Positions 29,215-38,745 of a stretch of 64,000 nt of DNA are shown piece by piece (position 1 is the stretch's first letter; every line of letters starts with the position of its first letter). The notes under the pieces are model-generated. The model saw only the letters and a program-made list of their open reading frames with translations, was not told the origin of the DNA and ran no database searches. The DNA comes from Streptomyces sp. NBC_01276 (GTDB taxonomy: Bacteria; Actinomycetota; Actinomycetes; Streptomycetales; Streptomycetaceae): positions 8,120,501 to 8,184,500 of the forward strand of contig NZ_CP108442.1 of the NCBI RefSeq assembly GCF_041435355.1. Direction: 5' to 3'. A program made the translations under genes and the position numbers.

Positions 29215-29595
29215 GGTGCGCCGGGATCCGTCGGACATGACGGACGCGGAGTGGGCGGCCGTGCGGCTGCTTCCGGTGCCGGCCTGGCTGGAGGGCGGGG
29301 CGGAAGGCCGGAGGGCTACTGACACCGGCAGATATTCGACGCGGTGTGTTACGTCGTCGACAACGGCGTCAAGTGGCGGGCGATGCCCGCCGACTTCCCG
29401 CCGTGGGAACGGGTCTACGCATTCTTCCGCCGCTGGCGCCGCCAGGGCCTGGATGTGGCGTTCCACGACCGGCTACGGGGCAGGGTCCGCATCAGCGAGG
29501 GACGGGCGGCCGAGCCGACCGCCGGCATCATCGACTCGCACCGCCACCGGCTGCGACGTTCCTGCGCCGCCGCCGGTGCCACCAACGGCTCTGTG
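29215..29595 (+). pseudogene. IS5-family transposase, N-terminal fragment with frameshift
   Basis: The first frame reads RRDPSDMTDAEWAAVRLLPV; after a shift near 29300 the second reads IFDAVCYVVDNGVKWRAMPA, DFPPWERVYAFFRRWRRQGL, DVAFHDRLRGRVRISEGRAA and EPTAGIIDS. This is the N-terminal half of IS5/IS1182-like transposases up to the first catalytic Asp. It ends near 29590, inside the 3' end of the convergent STAND ATPase gene. Confidence 0.8.
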
Positions 29596-32080
29596 GCCGT
29601 TGGGTGGACATGGCCAGCGCCGTCTCCAGCGCGTTGCGGGTGCTCAAGGTATGCGGGTGCTCGTCGCCCAGGATGCGGACGCGGTCATCGAGGGTTCGGC
29701 GCAGCAGGTCTATCGCCCGGGCCTGCTCACCTGCACTGGCCAAAGCGAGGGCGAGGTTGTGGCGACTGGCAAGGGTATCCGGGTGCTCGGGGCTCAGGAT
29801 GCGGGTGCGGTCCTCCAGGGTCTGCCGGTGCATGCGCACTGCTTGTGCGTGCTCGCCCATCCCGTCCAGCGCGAGACCGAGGCTGTCCCGGCTGGCCAGC
29901 GTGTGCGGATGCTCGTCGCCCAGAATGCGGGCGTGGTCGTTGAGCGCCTGCCGCAGCAGCTGTATCGCTTCCGTCTGCTCACCCGCCCTGGTCAGGGCGC
30001 TGGCGAGGTTGTGGCGGCTGAGCAGGGTGAGGTGGTGCTCGGGGCCCAGGACACGGACGCGGTCGTCCAGGGTGCTCCGGTGCATGCGCACTGCTTGTGC
30101 GTGCTCGCCCATCCCGTCCAGCGCGAGACCGAGGCTGTCCCGGCTGGCCAGGGTATGCGGATGCTCGGGGCCCAGGACACGGGTACGGTCGTTGAGGGTA
30201 TGCCGCAGCAGACCTACCGCCTCGGCGTGCTCACCCGTCCCGTCCAAAGCGCATGCGAGGTCATTGCGGCTGGTCAAGGTATCGGGGTGCTCGGGGCCCA
30301 GGATTCGTGTGCGGTCCTCCAGGGTCTGCCGGAGCAGGCCTATTGCCTCGGCCGGCTCTCCCATTCCGAACAGGGCATTGCCCAGGTCGTTGCGGCTGGT
30401 CAAGGTATCGGGGTGCTCGGGGCCCAGCATGCGGGTCTCGACGTCGAGGACCCGTTCATGCAGCAGGCGCGCCGCACCGAAAGCGCCAGCCTTCTGCAGC
30501 ACCTGCGCCAGGTCGTTGAGAGTGGTGCGGTGGTGTGTGGCAGTGCGCGGGTCCGCATAGTCGAGCAGCAGCGGCAGGTGGGGGGCGAGGAGCACGGCTG
30601 CAGGCCAACCAGCGCGCCCGCGCTGGTTGGCCTCGTGCACGGCCGTGGTGAGCCGCTCGGCAAGGGCCTGGTGCCACACGGCGAGATCGGAGGTCTCGGC
30701 CGCGAGGGCGACAGCGTTGATCTCTCGGATCAGGGGATGCAGCACCGTCTGCGCCCCCTCACTGCTGCCCGACGCCGGGCCGGTGCTGCCGGGAGAGTGG
30801 GGCAGGCCGAGGAGACCGTAGCGGTGCAGGCCGGCGAACGCGGCCTCCAGGGCCACCGCGGTGACGTCGTGTCCGGTGACGACGGATAGCAGGTCCGGGG
30901 TGATCAGGGACAGTGGGACGGGGGCCTGAGCCAGCAGGGCCAGCAGTCGCAACACGGGGCGGGCCAAAGCGTTGCCCTCCCCGGCGAGCTGATCCAAGGA
31001 AACCTCCCAGGTGTGCCGCACCACGGCGCGGGCGACCTGGGGATGGGAGGCATTCGGGTGCGCCGCTCCCAACAAGAACCGCAGTTCCTGTTCCAGGGCC
31101 TGGCGGTAGGCGGCAAAGGTGCGGTAGCGGCTGGTGGGTCCGGCCAGATAGGTGCCGGCCGCGCGCAACGCCAGTGGCAGCCCGCCCAGTCGCGCTGCCA
31201 GCTCTCGGGCCTGCTCGGTGGTGCCGGCTGCGGGAGCAGCGTCCAGCAGGACCTGCCCCGCAGGCCGCATCGGCAGCGGCGCCAGTGGCAGCAGCTGTGC
31301 GCACGGACCCCAGGTCTGCTCGCTGCCATCCCGGCTGGTCACCACCAGCAGGCCCCGGCCGTAAGGACGGATCCAGCCGCGATAGTCGGCCACCGGCTCC
31401 CCTGCCGGGCCGATCTCGTGCGGCTCGTCGGCGTTGTCCACCACCAGCAGCCACTGCCGCACCCGGCCCAACTGTCGCCAGACCACATCCGGCAGGCTCG
31501 CCTGCCCCGCTCGCGCGGCCTCCAGCTCTGCCTCTGGAAGGCCGCAGGCCAGCGCCGCCTGCACCATCTGCTGCGCCAGCTCGGCACCGTCGCGCCAGCG
31601 CACCCAAAACACTCGCCAGCCCGCCGCCTCGGCCTGGGCGGCCAGTTGCGCGGCCACCGTTGTCTTGCCCATCCCGCCGACCGCGCACAGCACCGCGAAC
31701 CGGCCTTGTGGCCGCCGAAGCATGCCTGTCAGCACGGCGAGTTCGTCCTCACGCCCCCGCACGCGCTGAACATGCGGGGGGCGTAACGAAGCCTGCTGGC
31801 CCCGGGCCAGTCGGCTCACCGGTGCCGGCCGCGTCGGGGGCCTTGCTGCGGTATCCAGATGTCGGCCCCACAGCAACAGCCCGATGCTGACCGCCACCAG
31901 CACGGCGAACACCGGCCAGATCACCCACGCCTGCGCCGCCCAGCCAGGCACCGCGTCACTGGCGTAGTTGGTCACCGGCCCCAGCACAGCCGCCACCACT
32001 GCGGCTGCTCCCGCCACCGCCGACCCGGCCCACCCACCCCGTCTACGCCCCATGGTCTGCCACCCCCGTCTACGCCCCAT
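29528..32080 (-). CDS. Membrane-anchored STAND/NB-ARC ATPase with kinesin-light-chain-type TPRs
   Basis: An 850-residue protein. Two N-terminal hydrophobic helices (about 20-45 and 50-72) come first, then the NB-ARC NTPase: VRGREDELAVL near 108, Walker A AVGGMGKTTVAAQL near 135, Walker B WLLVVDNAD near 212, and the LGGLPLALRAAGTYL winged-helix region near 295. About seven TPRs of 42 residues lie between 520 and 830, with HPDTLTSRNDLA..L..MGEHAQAV..LRQTL. Members of this class switch state on ligand or protein binding and some act in antiphage defence; the role here is unknown. The last 20 or so residues are encoded by antisense IS5 sequence, so the natural C-terminus has probably been replaced. 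Confidence 0.85.
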   Translation of the reverse strand: MGRRRGWQTMGRRRGGWAGSAVAGAAAVVAAVLGPVTNYASDAVPGWAAQAWVIWPVFAVLVAVSIGLLLWGRHLDTAARPPTRPAPVSRLARGQQASLRPPHVQRVRGREDELAVLTGMLRRPQGRFAVLCAVGGMGKTTVAAQLAAQAEAAGWRVFWVRWRDGAELAQQMVQAALACGLPEAELEAARAGQASLPDVVWRQLGRVRQWLLVVDNADEPHEIGPAGEPVADYRGWIRPYGRGLLVVTSRDGSEQTWGPCAQLLPLAPLPMRPAGQVLLDAAPAAGTTEQARELAARLGGLPLALRAAGTYLAGPTSRYRTFAAYRQALEQELRFLLGAAHPNASHPQVARAVVRHTWEVSLDQLAGEGNALARPVLRLLALLAQAPVPLSLITPDLLSVVTGHDVTAVALEAAFAGLHRYGLLGLPHSPGSTGPASGSSEGAQTVLHPLIREINAVALAAETSDLAVWHQALAERLTTAVHEANQRGRAGWPAAVLLAPHLPLLLDYADPRTATHHRTTLNDLAQVLQKAGAFGAARLLHERVLDVETRMLGPEHPDTLTSRNDLGNALFGMGEPAEAIGLLRQTLEDRTRILGPEHPDTLTSRNDLACALDGTGEHAEAVGLLRHTLNDRTRVLGPEHPHTLASRDSLGLALDGMGEHAQAVRMHRSTLDDRVRVLGPEHHLTLLSRHNLASALTRAGEQTEAIQLLRQALNDHARILGDEHPHTLASRDSLGLALDGMGEHAQAVRMHRQTLEDRTRILSPEHPDTLASRHNLALALASAGEQARAIDLLRRTLDDRVRILGDEHPHTLSTRNALETALAMSTQRPQSRWWHRRRRRNVAAGGGASR

Positions 32081-32181: not shown

Positions 32182-32375
32182 TCAGCGGCCGGATACCGAG
32201 CCTGCTGCTTGAACGCCATCATCCGCCGCCCGGCGCGGCCCGGGCACCAGGGCAGGCAGCAGGTCGAGCCGCTTGTCCATGTCGAGGCGGAAGGTGCCGT
32301 ACGGGTTGATGTTCGACCAGAACAGCGCGGTCAGTCCTCGCCGGTCCTCGTCGGACAGCTTCTTCGCCTGCCCGC
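32182..32375 (-). pseudogene. Tn3-family transposase C-terminal remnant
   Basis: The minus strand reads KLSDEDRRGLTALFWSNINP, YGTFRLDMDKRLDLLP, and ends at a stop at 32182. The pattern of an L-x-x-L-x-W-x-x-I-x-P-Y-G-x-F-x-L-D-M tail is characteristic of Tn3-type TnpA C-termini. The rest of the transposase is not found in the window. Confidence 0.55.
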
Positions 32376-32542
32376 ATCAGCAACTCCTGCATCGAATCGT
32401 GCAACAACCCGCCGCAGAGCCACACCCCCCGAGAACGAGTCCCAGGAGCTCAACGAATCCACCTCACCCCACGTCACACCACAGCTGATCCACCCCAAGA
32501 GAAAGCGAGTTCGCGCCGAGGCCGTAGCGGCAGCAGGGCTGG

Positions 32543-32558
32543 CCTGTTAACTGCACCA
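32543..32558 (+). repeat. Recombinase-element left-end motif, outer copy
   Basis: CCTGTTAACTGCACCA occurs here and again at 32825-32840. It lies 51 bases upstream of the outer recombinase start and probably marks that element's left end. Confidence 0.75.
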
Positions 32559-32608
32559 GTGACTCCGATCCCGGAGCGAGCCGATCCATGTTCTGAAGGA
32601 AGCTCCTG

Positions 32609-32823
32609 TTGTTAGACCTGCGCCACCAGCTGATCGAAGGCCGGGCTGATCTGCCCCGTGTCGGTTCGGTCATCGAGCTGGACACCATCCCCTGGTACGC
32701 CGTCGTGGATGCTGACGGCACCGTTGTTGCGCACGTTGTTCCGTACCTTCGAGGCTTGATCCTGGACGACAACCGTCCGGCGACCGCGAAGAGCTACGCT
32801 CACGACCTGCTCCGCTGGCACCG
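32609..32823 (+). pseudogene. Outer tyrosine recombinase, 5' part (split gene)
   Basis: A TTG start at 32609 with AAGGA eight bases upstream opens a phage-integrase SAM-like N-terminus: LDLRHQLIEGRADLPRVGSV, YAVVDADGTVVAHVVPYLRG and PATAKSYAHDLLRWHR. At 32823 the frame enters inserted DNA and stops after PVNCTMS. The remainder of the gene is at 34849-35830. Joining 32609-32823 to 34849-35830 gives 1,197 bases, exactly 399 codons, with the expected LRWHR-LLWFL junction. The related inner recombinase has LLRWHRLLWFLQ at the same place. Confidence 0.85.
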
Positions 32824-32824
32824 A

Positions 32825-32840
32825 CCTGTTAACTGCACCA
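32825..32840 (+). repeat. Recombinase-element left-end motif, inner copy
   Basis: Second CCTGTTAACTGCACCA, 282 bases after the first, directly at the junction where the outer recombinase gene is interrupted. Confidence 0.75.
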
Positions 32841-32893
32841 TGTCTTGATCGTGAACCAGGCGGATTGCCTGGTCTTTCCAGGAGCGTGGTGGG

Positions 32894-34145
32894 GTGGAGG
32901 ACGTAAGACGTGCCCTGATGGAAGGGAAGTGCTCGGTTCCCGAAGTCGGCGCCATAGCCGCAGGGACGACGAGAGGCCTTCCGTTCGTCCTGGTGGATGC
33001 TGACGGCTGCGAGGTCGGGCCGGTCAGTGCCTACTTGAGGGATCTGATGCTGGGAGACGTTAGCCCGCTGACCTGCCGGAGCTACGGATTCGGGCTGTTG
33101 CGGTGGCACAGGCTGCTCTGGTTTCTGCAGATCCCCTGGGACAGGGCCACAGAGGCCGAAGTTGCGGCGCTGGTTGGCTGGCTGCGCGAAGCACGCAACC
33201 CGCAGCGGCTCCGCAAGCGGAACGGCGCATCTCCACCACCAGGGTCGGTCAATCTGAAGACCGGCAAGCCGTCGCTCCGGGAGGGGTACGCGCCGAGCAC
33301 GATCAACCACAACCTCAGCGTCGTCAGCGGGTTCTATGCATTTCACGCGAGGTTCGGCGCTGGTCCGGTGGTCAATCCGGTGCCCACCTCGCGGGGGTGT
33401 CGCGAGGCTCTTGCACATCAATCTCCGCTGGAGCCGACGCCGGTGTTCCGGCGGGGCCGGCTGCGGCAGAAGGTGCCAGCGCAGGCTCCGCGGTCCATCC
33501 CCGATCACTTGTGGGATGAGTTGTTCGCCGGAATGGGCTGCGACCGTGACCGCGCGCTCCTGGAGTTCTACGTCTCCTCCGGGGCCAGGGCGAGCGAGCT
33601 GCTGGGAGTCGGTTTGGACGACGTCGACTGGTCGGGCCAGCTGATTTACGTGATCAGCAAGGGCACCCGCATCCGGCAGGCCGTGCCCGCCTCCCCGAAC
33701 GCCTTCCGCTACCTGGGCAGCTATCTGGCCTCCGACGGGTTGCCGGGCCCGGGCCAATCGGTGTGGCGCACCCGCCGCGGGGATTCGCGCCCGTTGACGT
33801 ATTGGGCGACGCGCCGAATTCTCCAGCGGGCCAACGAGAAGCTGGGCACGAACTGGACTTTGCACGATGCCCGTCACACGGCGGCGGTCAGGATGGCGGG
33901 AGACGAGCGGCTCACCCTCGCCGAGGTGCAGACGATCTTGCGGCACGCCCACCTCGACACCACCGGCCGCTACCTGACGGGCCCGTGTGGAGGACATGTA
34001 CGACAAGCTCCAGGAGCACTACACCAAGCCCCGTCCCCAGCGCACCTTCGCCGCCGGATACGACCCGGAGGACATCAACAGGGTCGCACCGGTCGACCTA
34101 GGCATCCCCGGCATCGCACCGCGATCAGCCGCCAGGCGAGAATGA
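32894..34145 (+). pseudogene. Inner tyrosine recombinase (one-base frameshift after the active-site Tyr)
   Basis: A Tn554 TnpA-like site-specific recombinase from GTG 32894. Its catalytic residues are present: Arg in SSGARASELLGVGLDD, His-x-x-Arg in LHDARHTAAVRMA, His in LRHAHLDTTGRYL and Tyr in GRYL. One extra G near 33977-33981 shifts the frame after this Tyr. In the corrected frame the protein continues ARVEDMYDKLQEHYTKPRPQ, FAAGYDPEDINRV and stops at 34145 (416 residues). The catalytic core is encoded either way; uncorrected, a long nonsense tail is added. Confidence 0.85.
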
Positions 34146-34296
34146 GGGGATGCATTGCCTGCAGGCAGTCATCGCCACCGAATCCGTGCTCCGCGAGCTG
34201 GCCGTCACCGCGACAGACGACTGGCTCTCGCCCACGAACGGGTCAAAGCCTGACGATCAGAACCTTGACTCGATGCAGAGAAGCCCTAGCAAGGGC

Positions 34297-34809
34297 TCAC
34301 ACCAGCAGCCGAATCGACGGAACTTCTGCATCGGCTGCAATCACCGTCTCGCACTCGCCGCAGTACACAGAGCTGGGACGCCGCACGTTCGTCTGGATCG
34401 AACCCTTGCTCGACGCTTCCTTGTGCGGGCAGTAGCAGCCGTAGTGCAGGCGAACCCAGGAACTCAACGGCGTCGCCTGCCCACCTCGCTTGGCATCCTG
34501 GAACGGCGCCCACCAGAAGTCCACCACGGACTTCAATACGAGCCGGTCGCCCTGGCTCGTGACATCGAACGCCGCAATCCGTACTGCCGCGAAGTGGTGC
34601 TCGTCTCGGCCGCTCATGCAGACAGCGCGCTCGGCCCCCCACTTCAGCACTGTGGTCCGGCCCACGCGCTCGCAGACAAAGCAATCCAAGCTCAGTTCGA
34701 TCGTGCGCTCCCAGAACAAGCGATCACGATGAACCTCCTCCAGTCCCGACAGAACCGCACTGATCTCAAGGCTGCGCAACATTGCGCGATCGTCGCACAC
34801 CTGCGCCAT
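34297..34809 (-). CDS. Zinc-ribbon-like hypothetical protein carried by the inner element
   Basis: A 170-residue protein from ATG 34809 (AQVCDDRAMLRSLEISAVLS). It has two Cys clusters: CFVCERVGRTTVLKWG near 55, and YGCYCPHKEASSKG with VYCGECETVIAADAE near 125-155. These suggest metal-binding ribbons. Its base composition is less GC-rich than the recombinases beside it. It is convergent with the inner recombinase and ends about 150 bases past it. I do not recognise a family; it is the only apparent cargo gene of the nested element. Confidence 0.6.
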   Translation of the reverse strand: MAQVCDDRAMLRSLEISAVLSGLEEVHRDRLFWERTIELSLDCFVCERVGRTTVLKWGAERAVCMSGRDEHHFAAVRIAAFDVTSQGDRLVLKSVVDFWWAPFQDAKRGGQATPLSSWVRLHYGCYCPHKEASSKGSIQTNVRRPSSVYCGECETVIAADAEVPSIRLLV

Positions 34810-34848
34810 CCGCACACAGAGGAGCTCGACTTGCCAAGTGCAGAGAAG

Positions 34849-35830
34849 GCTGCTGTGGTTCCTGGGTGTCGACTGGGACCGCGCGACTGAGACGGAGACC
34901 TCCGCACTCGTCGGATGGCTCCGCACCGCGCCGAACCCGCAGCGCCGCCGACGGAGCCCCAACTCGCCGCAGGCGGGCGCGGTCAACCCGCGCACCGGCA
35001 AGCCCTACCTCAAGGCCGGTTACGCGCCTGCCACGATCAACCACTGCCTGACCGTGGTCAGCGGCTTCTACGCCTACCACCGGCACTACAACCGCGGTCC
35101 GCTGATCAACCCGGTGCCTGAGTCGCAGGCACAGCGACGGGTCCTGGCTCACCGAGCTCCGGACGGCGAACTCCCGCAATTCCGACGGGCCCGGCTGCGC
35201 CAGCGGGTCCCCAAGACCGATCCGCGCTCGATTCCGGACAGGATGTGGGACGAGTTCTTTGCCGCGCAGACCTGCGACCGGGACCGGGCAGCCGTCCTGC
35301 TCTATGTCTCCAGCGGCTCGCGTGCCGGCGAACTCCTCCAAGTCACGCCAGGAGACATCGACTGGTCCAAGCAGCTGATCTGGGTGGTCACCAAGGGCCG
35401 GGACGACCGTGAGGCGGTCCCGGTCAGTCCGCAGGCCCTAATCGTCCTGGCCGCTTATCTCGACCACATCGGGCTGCCGGCGGCCGATCAGCCGGTCCTT
35501 CGCACACGCCGGGGTCCGGACCGGCCGCTGACCTACTGGGCGATGCGACGCGTGATCCAGCGGGTGAACGACAGGCTCGGCACGAACTGGACGCTGCACG
35601 ACCTGCGGCACACCGCCGCGATGCGGATGGCGAACGATCCGAACCTCACGCTCGCCCAGGTCCGGGTGATCCTGCGGCACAGCGACCTTGCGACCACCGG
35701 TCGCTACCTCAATGCCAGGGTCGAGGACCTCTTCGACGCCCTCCAAGCCCACTACACCCGGCCGCGCGTCGAGCGGACGATCGCACCGGGCTACGACCCC
35801 GACGATTTCAAGGCGGTGTTCGGTGCCTAG
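34849..35830 (+). pseudogene. Outer tyrosine recombinase, 3' part with complete catalytic core
   Basis: Continuation of the gene started at 32609: LLWFLGVDWDRATETETSAL, then VSSGSRAGELLQVTPGDIDW (catalytic Arg), LHDLRHTAAMRMAND (His-x-x-Arg) and ILRHSDLATTGRYLNARVED (His, Tyr). An accidental GTG at 34838 could still start a protein lacking about 70 N-terminal residues, leaving the active site intact. The stop overlaps the start of the next recombinase by eight bases, the coupling typical of recombinase trios and Tn554 tnpA-tnpB. Confidence 0.85.
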
Positions 35831-38135
35831 CCGCGCGACCATCGAGATCTACACCTCCCGGCACCGGCGACGGAACTACAGCGAGCCGCGCGAGGGAACC
35901 CAGTTCCAGCGGGCTCTGCTCCAGGCGGAGCCAGCCGCCCGCCCCGCCGTTCCACCGGCTCCGTTCGGAGACCTCTCCTCGATCGGGATCGAGGAGTTCT
36001 GTGTCTTGGTCACCGATCTTCTTCGAGGTAGAAACCGGTCGGTCGCCGAGAAACGACGGTCCGGTATCCGCGCACTCTTCGGCTACCTGGAGACCCTGCC
36101 CGGAGCCACCTGGCAGGAACGGTGGGACGCCAGCGTCTTCAAGGGCGAGGACGCCCAACCGGTGAACGTTCTGGCCCCGCCCGGCTCGACGGCCCGGCGC
36201 AACAGTCTCGTGGCAGCAGTGAAGCTGGCCTTCTGCATGCGGATCATCCAGCCCTGCCTCAGCGGGTTTCGCGCGAACAGGTTCCCCGGATACGCCGAAC
36301 AGTTCCGTCTCGCGCAGACAGACCCGCGCCTGGATGCTTTCTTCGAAGCAGCCAGCAACCACCCTCGGCTCAGCACGGTTCATCAAGACCGGGCCAAGTT
36401 CGATGTGACCTGCGCGCTCACGACGCAGGGCATCGCTTTTGCGGATCTCACCCCTGCTGCGCTGCTGCACTACTCCGTGGAGAACAAGCGGCTCGGTCTC
36501 ACTCACGGGGCCTGCCACCAGGACAGGACCCGGTATGCGGCCCGCGGGGCCTGGGAGGTGCTGCACGACATGGGGCACTTCCCGAACGGCACCGCACCCA
36601 CGCTGCGAAAGACCCTCGCGCAGGGACAGCACTCTGTCGAAGGGCTCGTCGACCGCTATGGGATCCAAGACGCCGAGGTCCGCCAGCTTCTGATCGATTA
36701 CCTGCTGCGTCGCAAGTCCGACACCGACTACACCACCCTGGACCAGCTCTCCCGCCAACTGGCCAGCACTTTCTGGGCCACCATCGAACAGATCAACCCG
36801 GAGCAGGCGGAACTTGCCCTGAGTTCGGAGGTCTATGACCAGTGGAGGGCGGAGATTCGATATTGGCAGCACGACAAGTCGAAGGTCCGCATGGACGTCG
36901 CGGCCGTGCTGCTGACGGTTCGCGGCCTCTACATGGACCTTCACACCTGGGCCGTTGCCGAACCCGAACGCTGGGCGCGATGGGTGGCTCCCTGCCCGAT
37001 CCTGCCGCGGGATCTCAAGGGCTTCGGCAAGCGCCGACGCGAGATCTACCAACGGATGGCAGACCGCACCCGGGTCCGCCAGCCGCTCCTGCCCGTGCTC
37101 GTCGAGCACGTCGAGTCCCGGCACGAGCACCTGAGCAGTCTCATCGAAGCCGCCCGCCTCGTCCCGCTTGGCACGGCGTTCGTCCACCGCGGCCGTCACT
37201 ACACCCGCAGCGACTCCCCGGAAGACCGCCGTCGGATCAGAACCGAGACGGGGCCGACGATCCGGATCGTCGACCAGGAAACGGGCAAGACGATCCACCT
37301 GGACCAGGTCGAAGAGCTGGCCTTCTGGGAGTGGGCCGCGGTCGAGATCCTCCGGCACAGCGGGATCCGAATCGAGGAGCTGACCGAGCTCACGCACCTC
37401 AGCATCCGCCAGTATCAGCGGCCCAACGGAGAGGTCATCGCCCTGCTGGTGATCGCTCCGTCCAAGGGCGAACGGGAACGTGTCATCCCGATGTCTCCCG
37501 ATCTCTTCCACGCCATCGCTCAGGTCGTCCGCCGCCAGACTCGGAACCGGCGGGCCATCCCGCTCGTCAGCCGCTACGACCCGCAGGAACGACTCTGGTC
37601 GGATCCCATGCCCTTCTTGTTCCAGCGCCAGCGGGGAACAGCCCACGACGTTCTTGCATCACGCACCATCGCGGGCATGCTGAGGCGGAGCTGCTACGAG
37701 ATCGCCCAGACTAATCCCGTGTTTGCCGACACGAAGTTCACCCCGCACGACTTCCGCAGGCTCTTCGCCACCGACATCGTCAACGGCGGCCTGCCCATCC
37801 ACGTCGGCGCCGCCCTGTTGGGACACCTGAACCTGCAGACCACCCAGGGCTACGTCGCGGTCTTCGCCGAGGACATCGTCCAGCACTACCAGGAGTTCCT
37901 GAACCACCGACGAAGCCAGCGCCCAGAGGGCGAATACTTCGATGTCACGCCGCAGGAGTGTGCGGAGTTCGAGGAGCACTTCGACAAGCGCAAGGTCGAA
38001 CTCGGGAACTGCGGCCGGCCCTACGGATCCTCCTGCCAGCACGAACACGCCTGCATCCGATGCCCCATGCTGCAGGTCAACCCGAAGATGCTGCCCAGGC
38101 TCGCGGAGATCGAAAGAGACCTGGTCCTGCGCCGC
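35823..38135 (+). CDS. Second outer recombinase (Tn554 TnpB-like), 3' end lost
   Basis: About 770 residues from GTG 35823, overlapping the preceding stop. A large N-terminal domain (about 1-480) precedes a tyrosine-recombinase core: Arg in LRHSGIRIEELTELTHL, Lys in APSKGERERVIPM, HDFRRLFATDIV, then LLGHLNLQTTQGYVAVF with the Tyr. A Cys/His-rich tail (GSSCQHEHACIRCPMLQVNP) is also typical of TnpB-like proteins. After EIERDLVLRRS the frame enters a signal-peptidase fragment, so the natural C-terminus, the third trio gene and the right end are missing. Confidence 0.85.
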
Positions 38136-38136
38136 A

Positions 38137-38745
38137 GCGTACGAGCCCGGCGCCTCCCGCCTCGCGCTGGGCGGCCGGCCCCTGGACGAGCCGTACGTGA
38201 AGGACGGCGACCCGACGGCCGGTTCTGCCGGGCCGTTCTCGGTCACGGTCCCGCAGGGGCGCGTCTTCCTGCTCGGCGACAACCGCGGCAACTCCGCCGA
38301 CTCCCGCTACCGCATGCGGATGACGCCGGGAGGCACCGTGCCGGTCACCCAGGTGCTCGGGGTGGCCCTCCCCGAGAAGGAGACCCTGCGCACCGGCGTC
38401 CTCTACGGCTCACTGATCATCGCGGGTGTCCTGGCCCTGCTGGCGTCCGCTGTCCTAGGCCTCCTCTGGCTGGCGGCCCGCCGGCGGCGGTCGGCCGTGC
38501 AGGGGGCCGGTCTGGGGAGCCATGGCGGTGGAACCCGCCGGTCCGCCGCGCCCGTGAGCGGTCCAGGGCGCCGTGTAACCGTCATGGGCAGCATGAGGCT
38601 GGCGTGGATCTCCTGGCCGGAGACGGCGGTGTTCGGGACGGGGGACCTGGGAGGGGTAGCGGATTTCGTCGGGCCACCGCAGCGCGTGCAGCGCAATCAC
38701 GTCGCCCTGACGGGGATTGACACACCCATTGTCAGCGGCCGCTGA
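38137..38745 (+). pseudogene. Type I signal peptidase, C-terminal fragment
   Basis: A frame starting at the junction reads SRLALGGRPLDEPYVKDGDP, FSVTVPQGRVFLLGDNRGNS and ADSRY. This is the conserved GDNRxxSxDSR box of S26 signal peptidases, followed by a C-terminal membrane helix (SLIIAGVLALLASAVLGLLW) and a basic tail. The catalytic Ser/Lys half is absent from the window. The fragment is fused to the truncated TnpB-like gene, so an element-borne deletion or insertion cut the host gene. Confidence 0.8.

Follow-up and report, generated by a model that had tools for sequence, protein, structure and literature searches.

Nested mobile elements raise a question of preference: did one recombinase element enter the recombinase gene of another by chance, or does it select this gene? 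The stretch of DNA analyzed here (hereafter, the window) comprises 64,000 nucleotides (69.0% G+C) from a contig of 8.23 Mb (positions 8.12-8.18 Mb) of Streptomyces sp. NBC_01276 (genome 9.37 Mb). In the window, an outer element extending from 32543 to about 38136 encodes a short tyrosine recombinase, tnpA, and an overlapping long one, tnpB (names assigned by gene order), and its tnpA is interrupted at about codon 72 by a second, related element of 2,025 bp (32824-34848). We found that the inner element belongs to a lineage that very likely uses the tnpA coding sequence of its own family as its attachment site.

A lineage inserted at one codon of tnpA

The initial annotation of the window, made from the sequence alone, had proposed that the outer tnpA is split by 2,025 bases containing a related recombinase element. 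This is borne out by the uncut homologue L033 (NZ_CP108815.1), with a tnpA annotated as 398 amino acids that aligns across the junction and matches both halves. Without 32824-34848, the outer tnpA frame is open from the TTG at 32609 to the stop at 35830, that is, 1,197 bases or 399 codons including the stop.

The inner lineage consists of 12 elements in Streptomyces plasmids and genomes, namely, L001 (the window), L034, L039, L040, L041, L042 (G223), L043 (G030), L044 (G054), L062, L072 (G690), L073 (G541) and L074 (G638), with protein identities of the relatives to the inner tnpA of about 77-98%, depending on the piece. A plasmid search with the left end of L039 and the start of its tnpA yielded four records with the left end (L039, L034, L040, L062). 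Among 392 genomes of the genus Streptomyces, the protein search found G000, G030, G054 and G223, and the end-pattern search found these four and G186; L041 (S. violaceoruber NRRL S-981) came from a scan of genome contigs, and G541, G638 and G690 were added when 391 genomes of the order were searched at the DNA level. Every one of the 12 was retrieved with the inner tnpA or left end as the query, so that the flank played no part in the selection; outer-element queries had already revealed five of them (G030, G054, L034, L039, L040).

All 12 elements lie in a tnpA of the family that is cut at one and the same codon, in the same codon phase, within the sequence coding for RW(H/F/W)R^xLW, and in each case, the sequence bordering ACCTGTT(A/G)ACTGCACCATG belongs to tnpA. 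Nine elements are oriented along the target gene and three (L034, L039, L062) are reversed. The ends deduced from these insertions are ACCTGTTAACTGCAC on the left and GTGCAGAGAAG on the right, the latter recognizable in 8 of the 12, with element lengths from 2,025 to 6,837 bp. These ends coincide exactly with the boundaries initially assigned to the inner unit, relatives of which occur in 11 other places outside this context. In seven cases (L001, L041, L043, L044, L072, L073 and the reversed L039), the element is bordered by the two target halves, one on each side.

In target coordinates, the left end follows CG in eight of the nine elements oriented along the target and AG in the ninth (L073), and in the three reversed insertions, it follows AG on the other strand; ACCT beside the left repeat is constant throughout the lineage. 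In the seven elements with both target halves, the right end is followed by the target's own bases, which means that no target sequence is duplicated. The right flank of L044 and the left flank of L073 deviate from the expected target by 1-2 bases, as an exchange of unlike core bases would give. The inner protein of the window has a weak match to the core-binding domain at residues 46-101, and the counterpart of the insertion site in this protein is near residue 73, so that the target enzyme is probably inactivated.

Self-immunity through an altered site in the element's own tnpA, as seen in L034, L039, L041 and L044, is not general: RWHRLLW is retained in L001, L040, L042, L072, L073 and L074 (in L043 and L062, our script did not locate the site). 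In L076 (G207:C1:4494000-4510000), an N-terminal piece of tnpA ending near 4501371 borders, at this very codon, on a reversed right-end-like CTTCTCTGCGCC; this is probably a further, 13th insertion, in the opposite orientation and mostly lost. A tnpA piece in G169 (L075) loses similarity near the site but has no element end there, and was rejected as an insertion. The nested opposite-orientation insertions in L034 (NZ_CP108363.1) and L039 (NZ_CP109260.1) are annotated as ordinary adjacent integrases, so such nesting is easily overlooked.

Recurrent insertion and competing explanations

Over 600 bp, the L041 element shows 98% similarity to that of L044, although the two targets are only 67% alike; between L040 and L074, conversely, the similarity is 90% for the targets and 75% for the elements. 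The targets of L039 and L062 are 80% alike. Because near-identical elements occupy different targets and one type of target holds two different elements, insertion into the tnpA site happened repeatedly. In a tree of 45 tnpA pieces, constructed with a quick method, 10 inner sequences form a single branch (SH-aLRT, the approximate likelihood ratio test, 100), whereas the five target pieces of sufficient length fall into three distant tnpA groups; the branch of the L041 target is long, and a warning of long branches meeting was issued by the program. The inner copies of L073 (two stops in tnpA) and L062 (no tnpA) were left out of the tree.

The relatives of the inner lineage show how far the tnpA site is specific to it. 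Of 32 other loci of the family, 20 had a recognizable left end and 12 did not, and none of the 20 matched tnpA or tnpB (E 0.01) in its 300-bp left flank. In three loci, both flanks are halves of one protein family: Mrr_cat (L037), DUF4158 (L046), which we take to be a Tn3-transposase domain, and DUF5999 (L038). The left flank alone matched an ATP-dependent DNA ligase (L035), UDG (L053) and cobW (L056); by eye, L035 and L036 have a ligase-like right flank in common, a 28-residue piece without a Pfam match. Given that the lineages split or adjoin different genes, they differ in their targets, that of the inner lineage being tnpA, and the specificity of this clade for tnpA holds in the present sample. 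By eye, the right-repeat GTG is in frame with the second half of the target in L037, L038 and L046.

The tnpA site could, in principle, be usable by the target's own recombinase, which would then catalyze the insertion in trans, and the terminal repeats, which are common to the lineages of the family, make such cross-recognition possible. We consider this improbable because, among the left flanks examined, the inner lineage alone sits at the tnpA site, and it uses targets from three distant groups. Still less plausible is an inner recombinase of broad specificity that hits tnpA merely as a common, safe and abundant landing pad. The gene is indeed common, a distant tnpA used as the query matching in 57 of 246 genomes of the genus Streptomyces (among which a tnpA ending at the insertion site is listed for G000, G054 and G223; the G030 case is known separately), but random hits in tnpA would scatter instead of falling 12 times out of 12 on one codon in one phase. 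A single ancient nested insertion, inherited and spread as a composite so that the shared site reflects descent rather than targeting, could draw on the four composites on plasmid records (L034, L039, L040, L062) and on the likeness of some targets noted above, but is very hard to reconcile with two orientations, with the discordance between elements and targets in both directions and with targets in three distant groups.

Several observations weigh against tnpA being the dedicated attachment site of the lineage. One target half was not found in 5 of the 12 cases (L034, L040, L042, L062, L074): the right flank of L074 is not tnpA, and the other four have no recognizable right end. The known members number only 12 and come without exception from Streptomyces, the genus of the window, and among the 391 genomes of the order, representing 10 genera, matches occurred in this genus only. 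An intact tnpA, an intact tnpB and both ends are found together only in L039, the contrast with the 20 elements of other lineages concerns left flanks only, and no transposition has been observed. Furthermore, the left end of L045 (G186:C2:12086803) differs from the inner type by at most two mismatches, yet lies outside tnpA; the inner tnpA was not matched in the 16-kb locus of L045, which looks by eye like a member of another lineage.

Taking all these points together, we still consider it very likely that the inner lineage uses the tnpA coding sequence of its own family as its attachment site, and it looks like a presumably mobile element specialized to land on its own kind. The end-specific or homing-like preference suggested by the initial annotation thus stands, more sharply defined than proposed, as site-specific targeting; the end of the outer element is not the target, and strict homing, through an endonuclease and gene conversion, does not fit elements with tyrosine recombinases, defined ends and both orientations (gene conversion itself was not tested).

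Relation to known recombinase elements

Tn554-related transposons of actinobacteria encode one long and one short recombinase, some lacking TnpC; the short (~350 aa) and long (611-828 aa) proteins are encoded by adjacent genes, mostly on actinobacterial plasmids (Van Houdt et al. 2012, PMC3414803). Adjacent short and long genes in the same direction are found here as well, with annotated overlapping pairs in L033 and L035-L039, and the tnpB of L039 matches the pRHL2 record NC_008270.1, for which the pair is listed without TnpC, at 35.8% over 90% of the length (E 3e-125). Judging by these similarities, the family corresponds to the class of Tn554-related actinobacterial transposons that was described in 2012. 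In the accessible part of that paper, no ends, targets or nesting are described for this class, whereas here, ends and targets were mapped and one lineage was found to target tnpA. TnpC influences the orientation of Tn554 (cited in PMC3414803); no gene named TnpC was found among the annotations of our loci, for which no TnpC profile was run. The next annotated gene after tnpB is on the other strand in L035-L039, and small hypothetical genes follow in the same direction in L033.

As far as can be judged from the descriptions in the accessible parts of PMC3414803 and PMC10214605, Tn554 of Staphylococcus resembles the present elements in combining an ordinary and a large tyrosine recombinase, site specificity, imperfect inverted ends and the lack of target duplication, but its target differs from tnpA. 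Recombinases of Enterococcus plasmids, the nearest in this comparison and perhaps of Tn554 type, match L039 tnpB at 22%, over residues 490-765 only. Strand-biased circularizing elements (SEs) likewise have an ordinary and a large tyrosine recombinase, imperfect inverted ends and few targets; their exchange region measures 6 bp, and one of them, SE-6945, entered insJ of IS3 (PMC10214605). They differ in having tfp between the recombinase genes and srap next to them and in being listed for Gammaproteobacteria; the accessible part of the source mentions no lineage fixed on a recombinase gene (PMC10214605). We rejected SE membership because, in L033 and L035-L039, the two recombinase genes share 8 bp, with no tfp between them (srap was not searched for). 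The initial annotation had compared the outer element both to Tn554 and to recombinase-in-trio (RIT) elements, and only the first comparison holds. RIT operons also encode several tyrosine recombinases, but these are three of similar size (accessible parts of PMC10214605 and PMC3414803).

In L033 and L035-L039, by contrast, each element encodes two recombinases of unequal size, which argues against RIT membership. Mobile elements that land site-specifically on other mobile elements include IS1111-attC and IS4321 at the ends of Tn21. Those elements hit DNA sites or ends, whereas the target here is the recombinase coding sequence of the same family. No lineage targeting the recombinase gene of its own family was reported in the accessible literature that we searched, most subscription papers being outside it.

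Neither phages nor viral contigs provided further relatives: the search gave no match in phages, and the pattern GTTAACTGCACCATGTC occurs in nine viral contigs, none of which match the tnpA or tnpB queries at E 1e-4.

The window locus and a proposed mechanism

The features of the two elements in the window are listed in the table.

Table. Coordinates of the outer and inner elements in the window
Feature	Coordinates	Strand	Evidence and remarks
Outer left terminal repeat, ..TGTTAACTGCACCA	32543..32558	+	Equivalent position in relatives
Outer tnpA, 5' piece, residues 1 to ~72	32609..32823	+	87% to L033 tnpA residues 5-72
Inner element, 2,025 bp, ACCTGTTAACTGCAC...GTGCAGAGAAG	32824..34848	+	Lies at the RWHR^LLW codon; comparison of 12 left and 8 right ends
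Inner tnpA, short tyrosine recombinase	32894..34085	+	PF00589, 5.8e-17; frameshifted near 33.98 kb
Inner tnpB, missing here	34086..34157	+	Bases resemble the 3' end of L034 tnpB, by eye
Inner cargo gene, ~170 aa, hypothetical, Cys pairs	34297..34809	-	36 homologues
Inner right terminal repeat, GTGCAGAGAAG	34838..34848	+	Ends deduced from the insertions
Outer tnpA, 3' piece, catalytic domain	34849..35830	+	PF00589, 5e-20; 90% to L033 residues 72-398
Outer tnpB, long tyrosine recombinase, truncated	35823..38136	+	PF00589, 2.2e-18; 91% to L033 tnpB 1-772/820

The left-end motif CCTGTTAACTGCACCA, initially described as common to both elements, is present at 32543 and 32825 and is the terminal repeat of the family; its core TTAACTGCACCA has no further copy on either strand of the window. 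At the equivalent position, the left repeat reads GTTAACTGC(A/G)CC in L035-L038, L046 and L047, and GTTGACTGCACC in L033. The three larger recombinase pieces of the window match Phage_integrase in Pfam. Both a recombinase and a cargo gene, as previously noted, are present in the inner element, with the amendment that the recombinase is frameshifted: its tnpA is 91% identical to the intact tnpA of L039, as two pieces in different frames, and about 58% identical to the outer type. A homology comparison found no match to tnpB in the inner element of the window. The homologues of the cargo gene are hypothetical or uncharacterized wherever named, and the L034 element contains similar DNA (82% over 564 aligned bases, with many gaps).

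The outer element was thought to end at 38135. However, the DNA match of its tnpB stops at 38136, the tnpB of L033 runs about 48 codons further, and GTGCAGAGAAG occurs only once in the window (at 34838), so 38135 is not the element end; by comparison with L033, the outer element has lost the last ~48 codons of tnpB and its right end. At 38136-38745, tnpB passes out of frame into part of a signal-peptidase-like gene (read by eye), a rearrangement that, judging from the sequence, removed the outer right end. With these defects, namely, the frameshift in the inner tnpA, the missing inner tnpB and the truncated outer tnpB, both copies in the window look dead.

In a plasmid search with the whole locus, 125 of 72,556 records matched, of which three cover at least 80% in one place. 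Searching the genome at the DNA level revealed no further copy of the locus but only a match of 42 bases at another place, and comparison of the left flank (32293-32546) with the left flanks of seven relatives gave no score above the maximum of 100 shuffles. To the left of the outer element, on the minus strand (29528-32080), there is an 850-residue open reading frame, ATPase-like with tandem repeats by eye.

We propose that the inner unit of the window is a decayed representative of a lineage of Tn554-related two-recombinase elements in Streptomyces (tnpA, tnpB, variable cargo and GTGCAG inverted ends), for which the attachment site would be the conserved stretch that encodes RW(H/F/W)R^xLW in tnpA genes of other family elements. 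Most likely, the recombinases join a circular form of the element, a presumed intermediate, to the target at (C/A)G^G, in either orientation and without target duplication; recognition of the site by particular proteins is likewise presumed. The target tnpA would be split inside the core-binding domain, probably disarming the target element, no host gene would be hit, and the inserted element, presumably to its benefit, would ride the plasmids and chromosome arms where its targets live.

It is conceivable, but rather doubtful, that the lineage is a dedicated hyperparasite that preys on other transposons of the family, puts them out of action by interrupting their tnpA and, perhaps, also takes control of the half that is left. 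In either orientation, the terminal GTGCAG repeat supplies a GTG that is in the reading frame of the C-terminal, catalytic part of the target, and the first ~40 codons after this GTG are free of stops in 8 of the 9 junctions where the C-terminal part was found; in the window, the open reading frame at 34838-35830, which holds the 3' piece of the outer tnpA, opens from the GTG of the inner right repeat. Hence, a truncated target recombinase might be made under the control of the inserted element.

If the proposed use of tnpA is correct, these elements would represent a clear natural case of a transposon lineage with an attachment site in the mobility gene of its own family, and of a site-specific conflict between related elements that is readable from sequence. 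With sister lineages in Mrr, the Tn3 transposase, DUF5999, ligase and tnpA, the choice of coding sequences as targets by paired tyrosine recombinases would become testable, and these lineages may offer short natural targets for engineered site-specific insertion in actinobacteria.

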